Both the position numbers and the translations under genes were made by a program. 64,000 nt of DNA from Spirochaetaceae bacterium (GTDB lineage Bacteria > Spirochaetota > Spirochaetia > Treponematales > Rectinemataceae). Positions 32,783 to 47,030 of this stretch are shown in pieces; positions within the stretch are counted from its first letter, which is position 1, and the number at the start of each line of letters is the position of its first letter. The notes beneath the pieces are model-generated. The model did no database searches, had not been told where the DNA came from, and was given only the letters and a program-made list of their open reading frames with translations. Location of the stretch: NCBI GenBank assembly GCA_025358255.1, contig JANYKC010000027.1, positions 44,077 through 108,076 of the forward strand, given 5' to 3'.

Positions 32783-33767
32783 TCCGGCCGGTAGGAGGGG
32801 GAGCCTCAGGTTCATCGCGATAGTCCTCCTCCTCGCGACCATAGCCGCCGCGTCAGGGGGGCTTGGAATGGCGGCTCCTCCGGGGCCGAGGGGAGCCGCC
32901 GCGGATTCGGAGACTTTGGCTTCCCTCCTCTGCGCCGCCGCGGCCAACCAGAGACGGGGCGGGGAAATCAAGGAATTGGCGCGAAGCCTGGGAGAGACCT
33001 TGCGCATCGAGGGCCTGGACGCCGGGGAAAGCTTCCTCACGGCGTTTCCGCCCTCAGGTGCCGTGCTTTCCATGCTTGCCCTGGACCGCGACGTGGAGGA
33101 CTTTGCGGAGGCCGGAAAAGGCATGAGCCTGGCCGCGGCCCACTACCGGCGTGCGGCGATGGAAGCGGAAGTGTTGCGCCCCCTCCGCTCGAACTATGCC
33201 CTCCTGTATGCCGCGGCCTGGAAGGAAATCACGCGGTCGCAAATTGGCAGGGAGAGGGAGGAGCGCCTCCTGGCTTCGCTTTCCCAGTCTCCCGACCTGG
33301 CTGCGCTCGGCGAGGAAGGCGCGCTGAGCCTGCCGCCCAAGAGCGACCTCGAATATTCCCATCCATTCGCGCTCGATATCTTTTTCGACGAAATCGAGAC
33401 CCGGGGGATGGTGGAGCGCGGACCCCATATTCGATCGCTCGAGGCCGGAATCGTCGTGGCAGCAGCCGATGATTGGCGCGGCGGAGCGGGCGCGGTGGCT
33501 TGGGAAAAGGGCGGCCTCTCCCCTTCCTCGGGCAACGGGGTAATCGTCTTCAGTCCGGGCTCGGGCCGGTACTATTCCTATTTCCATTTCTTCGAGGTGG
33601 CGGTCAGGCGCGGCGATGCGGTTCGGGAGGGCGATATCCTCGGTCGGGGTGGCAACACCGGGGCAAACGCCCGCAAGCCGGGCCATGGCGGCCACCTCCA
33701 CCTGGAGATATATGACAGCGTCCGCGATCGGGCGCTTTCCGCGTGGGAGATACGGGCGCTCCTGTAG
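32772..33767 (+). CDS. M23-family metallopeptidase (LytM-like), membrane anchored
   Basis: GTG start overlapping dnaQ-like gene; RYYSYFHFFEVAVRRGDAVREGDILGRGGNTG, GHGGHLHLEIYD. Confidence 0.85.
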   Translation: MAADPAGRRGSLRFIAIVLLLATIAAASGGLGMAAPPGPRGAAADSETLASLLCAAAANQRRGGEIKELARSLGETLRIEGLDAGESFLTAFPPSGAVLSMLALDRDVEDFAEAGKGMSLAAAHYRRAAMEAEVLRPLRSNYALLYAAAWKEITRSQIGREREERLLASLSQSPDLAALGEEGALSLPPKSDLEYSHPFALDIFFDEIETRGMVERGPHIRSLEAGIVVAAADDWRGGAGAVAWEKGGLSPSSGNGVIVFSPGSGRYYSYFHFFEVAVRRGDAVREGDILGRGGNTGANARKPGHGGHLHLEIYDSVRDRALSAWEIRALL

Positions 33768-33834
33768 ACAGTGCCCTCGGGAACTTGGGAGACGCCTCTT
33801 TCCAACAAGGCATCCCTTTCGCTATCATTCCGCC

Positions 33835-42762: not shown

Positions 42763-43011
42763 GGCCTTCCCCCTTCTTCACCTATGCAGGATTTTATCAC
42801 CGTACCTAATGGACAGGCAAGGTGGAATCTTTCCACGGAGCCGGAACCCGCCGGAAAGCCCAGGGGCCGATGCGCCACATTTGCACAGAAATTCCGGCGT
42901 ATTCGTAGCAAGGATATTTTTCCTCTTATATACTTGGAGCGGCAACGGGCGACAATGCGAGCCGGGACGCCGGTCCTTGAGACTCCACGCTGCCGCGAAA
43001 AGGAGCATTCA

Positions 43012-44259
43012 ATGTCCCTCGATTCCATCCTGGGAGTGTTCCAGGGTATTCAAACGCTCGCGCAAGCCTCCCCTGCCATGGTGATTGCCCGCATTGGACT
43101 GATCGTCCTCGGCCTCCTCCTCGTCTGGCTAGGCAAGAAGGGCGTCCTTGAGCCCCTGCTCATGATACCCATGGGTCTTGGCATGGCAACGGTCAATGCC
43201 GCTGTCATGTTCTTCGATCCCCTTGCGCTCCATGGCGGGATGGGAACCCTCTTTGTGGAAGCCCAGGCAGGCGCTACCTCCGATGCGGTACGGAACGCCG
43301 CCGACCTCATGACCATCATGCAGATCGATTTCCTGCAGCCGATCTATACCTTGATGTTCTCCAACGGCCTCATTGCCTGCTTTGTCTTCATGGGCATCGG
43401 CTCCATACTTGACATTTCCTTCGTCATGCTCCACCCCTTCATCTCGATGTTCCTGGCCCTCTGCGCCGAACTCGGGACAATCCTGGTCCTCCCCATCGCC
43501 CAACTCTTCGGCTTTACAGCCAAGGAAGCGGCGGCCATCGCGATGGTCGGTGGCGCGGACGGCCCGATGGTCCTTTTCACGAGCCTCAAGCTCGCGCCGC
43601 AACTCTTCGTTCCGATCAGTGTCGTGGCCTACCTCTATCTGGGCCTGACGTATGGAGGCTATCCCTACCTCATAAAGCTTATGGTGCCCAAGGGCATCCG
43701 CGGCACCCCGATGCCGATGGAGAGCAATGCGGGGACCGTCACCTCCGGGCAGAAACTCGCCTTCGCCGTCATCCTCTGCGCCTTCCTCTCTTTTCTCTTC
43801 CCGGTAGCGGCTCCCCTCTTCTTCTCGCTCTTCCTCGGCATCGCCATCAGGGAATCCGGCATCAAGCCCTTCCAGGATTTCGTGAGCAACACGTTGCTCT
43901 ATGCTTCGACCCTCTTCCTCGGCCTCATGCTCGGCATCCTCTGCGAAGCCGGCACGATCTTCAGCCCGAAGGTCCTTCCCCTACTCCTCCTCGGCATGCT
44001 TGCCCTCCTCCTTTCGGGGATAGGAGGACTCATCGGCGGCTACATCCTTTGGTTCTTCAAGAAAGGCAAATTCAACCCTGTCATCGGCATCGCCGGCGTG
44101 TCCTGCGTACCCAGCACGGCCAAGGTCGCGCAGAAGGTCGCGGCGGAAGCCAATCCCCAAGCCATGATCATGCAATACGCCTTGGGCGCGAACATTTCCG
44201 GAGTCGTCACGACCGCCATCATCGCCGCGATCTACGTCAGCTTCCTCGGCGGGAAATAG
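43012..44259 (+). CDS. oadB: Sodium ion-translocating decarboxylase beta subunit
   Basis: AAIAMVGGADGPMVLFTSLKLAPQLF; multispanning; preceded by AGGAG; start MSLDSILGVFQG. Confidence 0.93.
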   Translation: MSLDSILGVFQGIQTLAQASPAMVIARIGLIVLGLLLVWLGKKGVLEPLLMIPMGLGMATVNAAVMFFDPLALHGGMGTLFVEAQAGATSDAVRNAADLMTIMQIDFLQPIYTLMFSNGLIACFVFMGIGSILDISFVMLHPFISMFLALCAELGTILVLPIAQLFGFTAKEAAAIAMVGGADGPMVLFTSLKLAPQLFVPISVVAYLYLGLTYGGYPYLIKLMVPKGIRGTPMPMESNAGTVTSGQKLAFAVILCAFLSFLFPVAAPLFFSLFLGIAIRESGIKPFQDFVSNTLLYASTLFLGLMLGILCEAGTIFSPKVLPLLLLGMLALLLSGIGGLIGGYILWFFKKGKFNPVIGIAGVSCVPSTAKVAQKVAAEANPQAMIMQYALGANISGVVTTAIIAAIYVSFLGGK

Positions 44260-44273
44260 GCAAGGAGACCGAT

Positions 44274-44591
44274 ATGTTGGCAACAGATGTCCTCATCGCA
44301 ATAACCGTCATTCTCGCCATCCTCGCGGCGATCGCGACACGCATCGCGCTCAGCCTGAAGGACATAGGGAGCTCGCTTGACCGGATCGCGGAAGGGATGG
44401 TGGAGCGGCCTTCGTTGATTCCAGACCTGGGGCTGCACCTCCCCCTGGCAAGGCCAGATGATGCGGTTCCCTCCGACACCGAAATGGCCGCCGTCATCGC
44501 CGCTGCCGCCCGATTTTCGGGAGCTGCCCGATCCTCAGGCGCGCGAGGTTCTGACATCGCCACCCAGCCCAACGTAGAAAGGACCACGTGA
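44274..44591 (+). CDS. OadG-like gamma subunit (N-terminal TM, C-terminal DTEMAAVIAAAARFSG)
   Basis: AAGGAGA RBS; position between oadB and oadA; C-terminal motif typical of OadG proteins. Confidence 0.65.
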   Translation: MLATDVLIAITVILAILAAIATRIALSLKDIGSSLDRIAEGMVERPSLIPDLGLHLPLARPDDAVPSDTEMAAVIAAAARFSGAARSSGARGSDIATQPNVERTT

Positions 44592-46732
44592 TGAAAAAGA
44601 TCGAATTCATGCTGACCGCTTTCCGCGATGGCCTCCAATCGGCCTTCGGCTCCCGAGTCCTCTCCAGCGACTACCTTGGCGTGGTCGAGGCCTGCGCGGG
44701 CGCGGGCATCGAGCACTTCGAATCCGGCGGCGGAGCCCTCTTCCAATCCTCCTATTTCTACTGCAACGAGGACGCCTTCAAGGTCATGGATGACTTCAGG
44801 GCAGCGGCAGGACCAAAGGCCAGGCTCCAGACCCTCGCCCGTGGCGTGTATCTCGTAGGGCTGGAGGGACAGGGCTCGGACGTGATAAAGCTCCATGCGG
44901 CCCTCTTCCGGAAACACGGCGTGGATATCGTGCGCAATTTCGACGCCCTGAACGACATGGACAATCTCCGCTATTCGGGCGCCTGCATCCGGGAAGCCGG
45001 GCTCCGCCACGAGCTTGGCATCGCGATGATGGAGTTGCCCCCCGACAGCCCCGCCGTCAGGGGACCGGAATTCTACCTCTCGGTCCTGCGAAGGCTCATG
45101 GACGGCGGCGTCGACTTTGATTCCCTCTGTTTCAAGGACGCCTCAGGCACCTGCACTCCCCGCCTTGTCCACGATGTGGTGAAGGGAGCCCGCAAGATCC
45201 TTGGACCGAAGGCAAGGATCGTTTTCCATGGCCATGACACCGCCGGCCTCGGAGTGGAGTCCTGCATGGGAGCCATCGAGGCTGGCGTCGACCAGGTCGA
45301 TCTTTCGATGGCGCCTTGTTCCGGCGGAACCTGCCAGCCCGATATACTTTCGCTGTGGCATGCGTTGAGAGGGACCGAGTACAGCCTCGAGATCGATCCG
45401 CACAGGATCATCGCGGTGGAGGAACGCTTCAAGGACGCGCTCAGGGACTACTTCATGCCGCCTGAGGCCACCCGTGTCGATCCCCTCGTCTCCTTCTTCC
45501 CGATGCCCGGAGGAGCCCTCACCTCGAATACTCAGATGCTTCGTGACAATGGCCTGCTCGACCGCTACCGCGACGTGGTGAAGGCCATGGGCGAGGCCAT
45601 CGTGAAGGGAGGCATGGGAACCTCGGTCACGCCCGTCAGCCAGTTCTACTTCCAGCAGGCATTCAACAACGTGATGTACGGACCCTGGACCCGCATCGCG
45701 GAAGGTTATGGCAAGATGGTGCTTGGCTATTTCGGCAAGACCCCTGAAGAGCCGGATCCCGAGGTCAAGCGCCTTGCCATCGCCCAATTGAATCTTCCGC
45801 CGACCACCGCTAGCCCCCTCGAGATCGTGGACAGGGACCCTCGGCAGGGCCTGGCCGCCGCCAAGGCCATCCTCGAGGCCGAAGGGCTCGCTGTCACCGA
45901 GGAAAACCTCTTCATCGCCGCGGAGTGCCACGAGAAAGGCATCCTCTTCCTCAAGGGAAAGGCCCCTTGCCTCGTGGACAAGAGCGGTGTTGAAGCGAAG
46001 GGCCGAGCCAGCCTTCCTGTCCAGAAGGCCCATCCCACCGACGATGAGGTCACGGTCCGCATCAACAACCGCGCCTACGGGGTGAAGTTCTCAGGGGACC
46101 ATGTGACCGTGAACGGCATCATGTACAACTTCCTGGTCGCTACTGGAATTGATGCGGAAGCGGTGGCGCGCACCGCGGTCTTGCCCAAGGGCGCGGATGC
46201 CCCGGCGATCGCCACGACGACATCCGTGGATTCGCCGCTTTCCGGCATCCTGACCCGACTGTACAAGAAGCCAGGCGACAAGGTCGCTGTCGGCGAAACC
46301 GTCATGGTCATCGATGCCATGAGCATCGAGGTCCCCGTCAATTCACGGTTCTCGGGGATCATGCAGGATGTCTTCGTCCACCTTGGAGAGCAGATAGGCA
46401 CAGGCCATCCGTTGTTCCGCGTTTCCACCATCACCCACGGCAGCGAACGCACCGTATCCCACGCTGCAGAAGGACGCATCGTGGAGGAGGCCAGCGGCAG
46501 GAGATCCGCGATGGCTTCCCCGATAACCGGCCTCGTGCTTCGCATCTACAAGGAGAGCGGCGAACGGGTCCGCGCCGGCGAATCGGTGGTGGTCCTCGAG
46601 TCCATGAAGATGGAGACACCCGTGAATTGTCCCATAGAGGGGCTCATCGAATCCATCGTCGTGAAGCGCGGAGACATCGTCCGAGAAGGGGACATCCTCG
46701 CAAGGCTCGACCAAAAAAGGGAAGAACGATGA
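44588..46732 (+). CDS. oadA: Carboxyltransferase (OadA-like) alpha subunit with two tandem biotinyl domains
   Basis: TAFRDGLQS, VFHGHDTAGLGVESCMGAIEAGVDQVD, VIDAMSIEVPVNS (biotinyl-like 1), VVLESMKMETPVNC (biotinyl 2). Confidence 0.9.
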   Translation: MMKKIEFMLTAFRDGLQSAFGSRVLSSDYLGVVEACAGAGIEHFESGGGALFQSSYFYCNEDAFKVMDDFRAAAGPKARLQTLARGVYLVGLEGQGSDVIKLHAALFRKHGVDIVRNFDALNDMDNLRYSGACIREAGLRHELGIAMMELPPDSPAVRGPEFYLSVLRRLMDGGVDFDSLCFKDASGTCTPRLVHDVVKGARKILGPKARIVFHGHDTAGLGVESCMGAIEAGVDQVDLSMAPCSGGTCQPDILSLWHALRGTEYSLEIDPHRIIAVEERFKDALRDYFMPPEATRVDPLVSFFPMPGGALTSNTQMLRDNGLLDRYRDVVKAMGEAIVKGGMGTSVTPVSQFYFQQAFNNVMYGPWTRIAEGYGKMVLGYFGKTPEEPDPEVKRLAIAQLNLPPTTASPLEIVDRDPRQGLAAAKAILEAEGLAVTEENLFIAAECHEKGILFLKGKAPCLVDKSGVEAKGRASLPVQKAHPTDDEVTVRINNRAYGVKFSGDHVTVNGIMYNFLVATGIDAEAVARTAVLPKGADAPAIATTTSVDSPLSGILTRLYKKPGDKVAVGETVMVIDAMSIEVPVNSRFSGIMQDVFVHLGEQIGTGHPLFRVSTITHGSERTVSHAAEGRIVEEASGRRSAMASPITGLVLRIYKESGERVRAGESVVVLESMKMETPVNCPIEGLIESIVVKRGDIVREGDILARLDQKREER

Positions 46733-46851
46733 ATGACGGCATGACGATAGCCTTTACAAGTTATGCGCTCGCGGCGGTCATATCATTCATCACCGCCGGC
46801 CTCATGGCCTTGATCCTCAAGGCCATCAATCTCACGATGCGGAAAAAATAG
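46729..46851 (+). CDS. 40-aa single-TM microprotein translationally coupled to the decarboxylase alpha gene
   Basis: ATGA overlap; MNDGMTIAFTSYALAAVISFITAGLMALILKAINLTMRKK. Confidence 0.6.
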   Translation: MNDGMTIAFTSYALAAVISFITAGLMALILKAINLTMRKK

Positions 46852-46956: not shown

Positions 46957-47030
46957 GGGCGCTTGGCTCAGCTGGTGAGAGCGGCTGGTTTACACCCAGT
47001 AGGTCACAGGTTCAAATCCTGTAGCGCCCA
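46957..47030 (+). tRNA. tRNA-Val (anticodon TAC)
   Basis: GGGCGCT/AGCGCCC acceptor; anticodon loop TTTACAC; T arm ACAGG-TTCAAAT-CCTGT. Confidence 0.95.

Follow-up and report, generated by a model that had tools for sequence, protein, structure and literature searches.

The usual picture of a biotin-dependent pump has a single biotin arm, attached through a flexible Ala/Pro linker. The locus described here raises the question of why such an enzyme would keep, ahead of a canonical biotinyl domain, a second domain of the same type that lacks the lysine to which biotin is attached. The locus lies in a 64,000-nucleotide stretch of contig JANYKC010000027.1 from a Spirochaetaceae bacterium; this whole stretch is referred to as the window, and positions are counted from its first letter.

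An alpha subunit with two biotinyl-type domains

The features of the predicted operon are as follows.

43009..44259, + strand: beta subunit, MadB-like carboxybiotin decarboxylase/Na+ translocator (PF03977 OAD_beta)
44274..44591, + strand: gamma-like small subunit, with one TM helix and a C-terminal EMAAVIAAAAR segment like the gamma end in relatives (from the translation)
44591..46732, + strand: alpha subunit, OadA/5S-type carboxyltransferase with association domain and two biotinyl-type domains (PF02436, PF00682, PF00364 twice)
46211..46432, + strand: D1 (residues 541-614), lysine-less biotinyl-type domain
46322..46324, + strand: Ser578 (AGC), hairpin tip, at the place of the biotinyl lysine in D1
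46433..46495, + strand: D1-D2 linker, not Ala/Pro-rich
46496..46714, + strand: D2, canonical biotinyl domain (ESMKMET), residues about 636-708
46607..46609, + strand: Lys673 (AAG), predicted biotin attachment site in D2
46729..46851, + strand: 40-aa single-TM protein, similar to the N-terminal TM portion of gamma subunits from relatives

The alpha ORF runs from an ATG at 44591 to a stop codon at 46730-46732 and encodes a product of 713 aa, the N-terminal two thirds of which are a carboxyltransferase of OadA/transcarboxylase-5S type (PF02436, PF00682). Transcarboxylase 5S is the best solved relative (alignment E about 1e-53), and the metal-site Asp, Lys and His-x-His are present as D13, K182, H213 and H215, which align to 5S and are nearly invariant across 40 relatives. 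Foldseek analysis of the whole alpha chain returned pyruvate carboxylases (two-subunit 5ks8), 5S and the OadA CT 2nx9. Against TIGR01108 (OadA equivalog) the protein scored 297.8 bits, below the cut-off of 756.5, and it is far from this equivalog. An OadB/MadB-type membrane subunit is encoded beside alpha (PF03977, 348 bits, 43009-44259), with profile scores of 470 bits for TIGR03136 (below the cut-off of 596.9) and 194 bits for TIGR01109 (above the cut-off of 190.6). With this MadB-like beta and small gamma-like membrane proteins beside alpha, the setting is that of a Na+ pump; the gene encodes the alpha chain of a decarboxylase that depends on biotin and probably translocates Na+, and we infer that the pump moves Na+.

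The upstream small protein (44274..44591) has its own TM helix together with the AAVIA-type C-terminal segment of gamma; counterparts were found in L063, L006, L003, L004 and L064, and profile scans gave no family match for it. The start codon of the downstream 40-aa protein shares bases with the alpha stop codon (ATGA). This protein is one of a group of single-TM proteins of 40-48 aa that follow alpha in eight genomes of the window's taxonomic family (f1), whose members are uncultured Spirochaetota, and in L064, and that resemble the N-terminal TM portion of the L034, L087 and L076 gamma subunits. By these resemblances, the gamma subunit looks to have been split into two small membrane proteins. 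Comparison by eye indicated that beta types differ beside related alphas, being MadB-like in f1, L034, L076 and L087, and of another, OadB-like type, located downstream, in L038 and L070. A tRNA-Val gene (tac) lies directly after the operon at 46957-47030, and the window genome has a second carboxyltransferase-like gene and, some 10 kb off, a gene for a separate biotinyl protein (G000:C60:22877-23629 and 33628-33828).

A preliminary description of this DNA had placed tandem biotinyl domains at the alpha C-terminus, the second with a canonical motif and the first with Ser in place of the biotinylated Lys. Its sequence, frame and coordinates were correct: each domain scanned alone passed the PF00364 Biotin_lipoyl cut-off of 22.1 bits (43.6 bits for D1, 59.3 bits for D2), the AGC codon in the D1 context ...VIDAMSIEVPVNS... 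is residue 578, and the AAG codon in the D2 context ...VLESMKMETPV... is Lys673. A full-length AlphaFold2 model of alpha (40 sequences, mean pLDDT 83) had the same strand order in D1 and D2, with a pLDDT of about 68-81 for the D1 block. Residues 577-578 form the hairpin tip between strands 570-576 and 579-584, as their D2 counterparts 672-673 do between strands 665-671 and 674-679, so that the tip lysine of a functional carrier is absent from D1 (Ser578) and present in D2 (Lys673). D1 modelled alone (10 sequences) gave a poor model (pLDDT 43); a D1 profile, which took in two lysine-bearing rows, matched solved structures of biotinyl domains, 2d5d and 1dcz among them. On the full-length model, the Pfam score and these profile matches, D1 is predicted to have the barrel-sandwich biotinyl fold, in agreement with the earlier view that this fold was retained. 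We infer that D2 alone is biotinylated; the window genome encodes a BirA-like biotin ligase (TIGR00121, 68.4 bits, below the cut-off of 83.1) and a lipoate ligase.

Distribution and history of the lysine loss

The gene was found in 9 of 30 searched genomes of f1, representing five genera, and D1 was readable in eight of these proteins, including that of the window. The lysine was absent from all eight and replaced by Ser, Gly or Asn, with tips reading DAMSIE (window), DTMGVE, DSMNIE (twice), DSMGIE, ETMGMQ, ETMGMS and ESMGIK. Whether AMSIE is conserved had been raised as a check in the preliminary description; no f1 orthologue has AMKIE, and the residue itself varies. In D2 the lysine was kept in all eight (AAA or AAG). 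The D1 tip codons are AGC, GGG, AAC, AAC and, four times, GGC, six of the eight being more than one base from AAA/AAG; as eight genomes with differing codons agree on the lack of Lys, a sequencing or assembly error was ruled out and has virtually no probability as the explanation for Ser578.

Tandem domains proved to be common among relatives, a distribution that went beyond the earlier description. The number of domains ranges from one to three in about 100 wider relatives, drawn from Spirochaetota, Victivallis, Kiritimatiellota, Elusimicrobiota and other groups, and every domain in the sequences examined has its lysine (37 K, 71 KK and 9 KKK entries, counts that include some duplicate records of one genome); no further case of lysine loss was seen among them. 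A further scan, covering 394 genomes of the order, added only one member outside f1, G550, whose length and position match those of L064 (SZUA-377, KK). In the sequences examined, lysine loss is confined to a single taxonomic family, most of the genomes compared being metagenome assemblies. The Spirochaetota relatives L037, L036, L042, L077, L091, L072, L083, L051 and L102 each have three biotinyl domains in tandem, none of which lacks the lysine. A distant OadA paralogue of the same order (L010-L015, which constitute family f3, L016, L017 and L020) has two biotinyl domains, both with lysine.

A core tree was built on the part of alpha upstream of the biotinyl domains, with the incomplete row L006 handled apart. 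The lysine-less proteins formed one clade (89/95), whose sister was the SZUA-377 protein L064 (100/99), the closest relative outside f1 and the bearer of a D1/D2 pair with both lysines. One change is enough to explain the loss on this tree. AU tests rejected grouping of L064 with the window genus (p 0.034) or with the G011 group (p 0.028) but did not reject its grouping with the G019 group (p 0.24). The lysine of D1 was thus probably lost once; two separate losses are possible because support for the single-loss node (89/95) is not strong and because the L064/G019 grouping was not rejected.

The pair itself is older than the loss. In a single-domain tree, which has few columns and is weak, f1 D1 grouped with L064 D1 and f1 D2 with L064 D2. 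Identity between D1 and D2 is 27-39% in f1, 53% in L064 and 75% in L034; in the other tandems the two domains are 68-77% identical and mostly group inside their own lineage. This domain-tree grouping and these identities indicate that the D1/D2 pair is old in the f1/L064 lineage, that divergence began before the loss and that L064 represents the pre-loss state.

Constraint on D1 and its possible roles

Comparison of pN/pS for D1 and D2 in five f1 pairs gave values of 0.28/0.37, 0.09/0.16, 0.17/0.24, 0.13/0.16 and 0.30/0.40, such that D1 was lower in every pair; these values come from a counting method applied to few pairs with near-saturated synonymous sites. In the two lysine-bearing tandem pairs compared, D1 evolved faster than D2. 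Site entropy in f1 at the tip (offsets 0 to +3 from the lysine) was 1.36 bits for D1 versus 0.24 bits for D2, and outside the tip 0.94 versus 0.92 bits; the Met preceding the lost lysine is invariant in f1 D1. These patterns show that D1 has been kept by purifying selection without decay, with relaxation of the hairpin tip only, and that the constraint lifted was that tied to biotin attachment and use while the fold was kept.

The geometry of the arm provides a possible reason for this retention. In the GcdC subunit of glutaconyl-CoA decarboxylase, an Ala/Pro-rich linker is held to let the biotinyl domain swing between carboxyltransferase and membrane subunit (PMC7145394), and the same is held for the biotinyl domain of OAD (PMC7274780). 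Ala/Pro content in f1 is 12-35% before D1 and 4-28% after it, both linkers being short; the D1-D2 linker of other tandems has a median of 60%. Between the association domain and D2 lie about 130 residues, compared with 29 ahead of the biotinyl domain in single-domain relatives. Given these short, Ala/Pro-poor flanking linkers and the distance to D2, we read D1 as a folded spacer. In double-lysine relatives the arm is about as long (131 residues) and reaches equally far, so arm length alone does not account for the dropped lysine: a spacer explains why D1 stayed, not why its lysine went. For the latter, one carrier domain would suffice.

With moderate confidence, we favour D1 as a folded structural module in the arm, a spacer with possibly a docking role, which lost its lysine after the SZUA-377 split and is no carboxyl carrier. 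On this proposal, an old tandem duplication produced two biotinyl domains; after separation from the SZUA-377 lineage, D1 lost its lysine, ending carboxyl carriage; and D1 would have been retained as a folded module that adds the length of a globular domain to the arm and holds D2 in place. Biotin on Lys673 of D2 would shuttle the carboxyl group between the alpha carboxyltransferase and the MadB-like beta. The preliminary description had proposed duplication followed by neofunctionalisation as a structural or docking domain. Duplication and then loss of the D1 biotin site fit the core and domain trees, and retention under purifying selection fits the pN/pS values; the new structural or docking function is plausible, and a demoted spacer would need no new function.

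D1 would act as a spacer or a docking surface, and the sequences fit both alike. A rival reading, in which D1 is a docking or regulatory pseudo-carrier in cis whose surface binds the carboxyltransferase, beta or D2 and organizes or restrains the complex, is unlikely; it would make D1 analogous to plant BADC proteins, which lack the AMKL motif and are credited with assembly and inhibitory roles (PMC11926652). Constraint on D1 outside the tip, equal to that on D2, would be expected of such a surface; however, the relaxed f1 tip (S/G/N, then I/V/M and E/Q/S/K) is unlike a dock that binds through its tip. Alternatively, D1 may be a relic past its carrier role, without dedicated function and staying only since its removal would upset folding. 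Loss of the lysine where a second, intact carrier domain exists, and its replacement by three different residues, would be natural for a relic, but D1 has the lower pN/pS in every f1 pair and has been retained across five genera, making this explanation improbable. Finally, the fold is common to lipoyl domains and the D1 tip residue could bear another prosthetic group or modification, but this is highly improbable: Ser, Gly and Asn alternate there in f1, which rules out a modified Ser, Gly has no side chain to modify and the window protein has no lysine in the D1 hairpin tip.

Comparison with known systems

The architecture of the window alpha resembles OadA, the alpha subunit of the Na+ pump oxaloacetate decarboxylase (TIGR01108/PF02436 + PF00364), in having carboxyltransferase, association domain and C-terminal biotinyl domain on one chain and in being encoded in an operon with beta and small gamma-like subunits. 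Unlike OadA, the window system has two biotinyl-type domains, the first without lysine, a MadB-like beta and an extra small TM protein. The glutaconyl-CoA decarboxylase of Clostridium symbiosum, which is Na+-translocating, also has two carrier domains (GcdC1 and GcdC2), but these are separate subunits with flexible Ala/Pro regions and both are described as biotin carriers (PMC7145394). Multi-lipoyl E2 proteins (e.g. 7b9k) likewise have carrier domains from this fold family arranged in tandem in a single chain, although these are lipoyl rather than biotinyl and the lysine is kept in all three domains of the aligned entry. The open-access literature searched, which excludes most subscription journals, yielded no description of a lysine-free carrier domain in such a pump and no paper on tandem biotinyl domains.

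With a conserved, lysine-free D1 and a close relative that has both lysines, the possible conversion of a cofactor domain into a structural part can be put to the test, as can the contribution of the arm as such to biotin-dependent pumps. For a biotinyl fold retained in the absence of its lysine, the nearest precedent is plant BADC of the heteromeric acetyl-CoA carboxylase, which similarly has a biotinyl-type fold without a biotinylation motif in a biotin enzyme (PMC11926652). BADC proteins are separate subunits of a plastid carboxylase, whereas D1 lies in cis in a bacterial decarboxylase, and the likeness is one of analogy only. Tentatively, and in the knowledge that it may well not hold, we suggest that in this predicted bacterial Na+ pump a carrier domain has turned, in cis, into a module with a dedicated role other than carriage, as an independent bacterial counterpart of plant BADC, and that the gamma subunit has been divided between two small membrane proteins.
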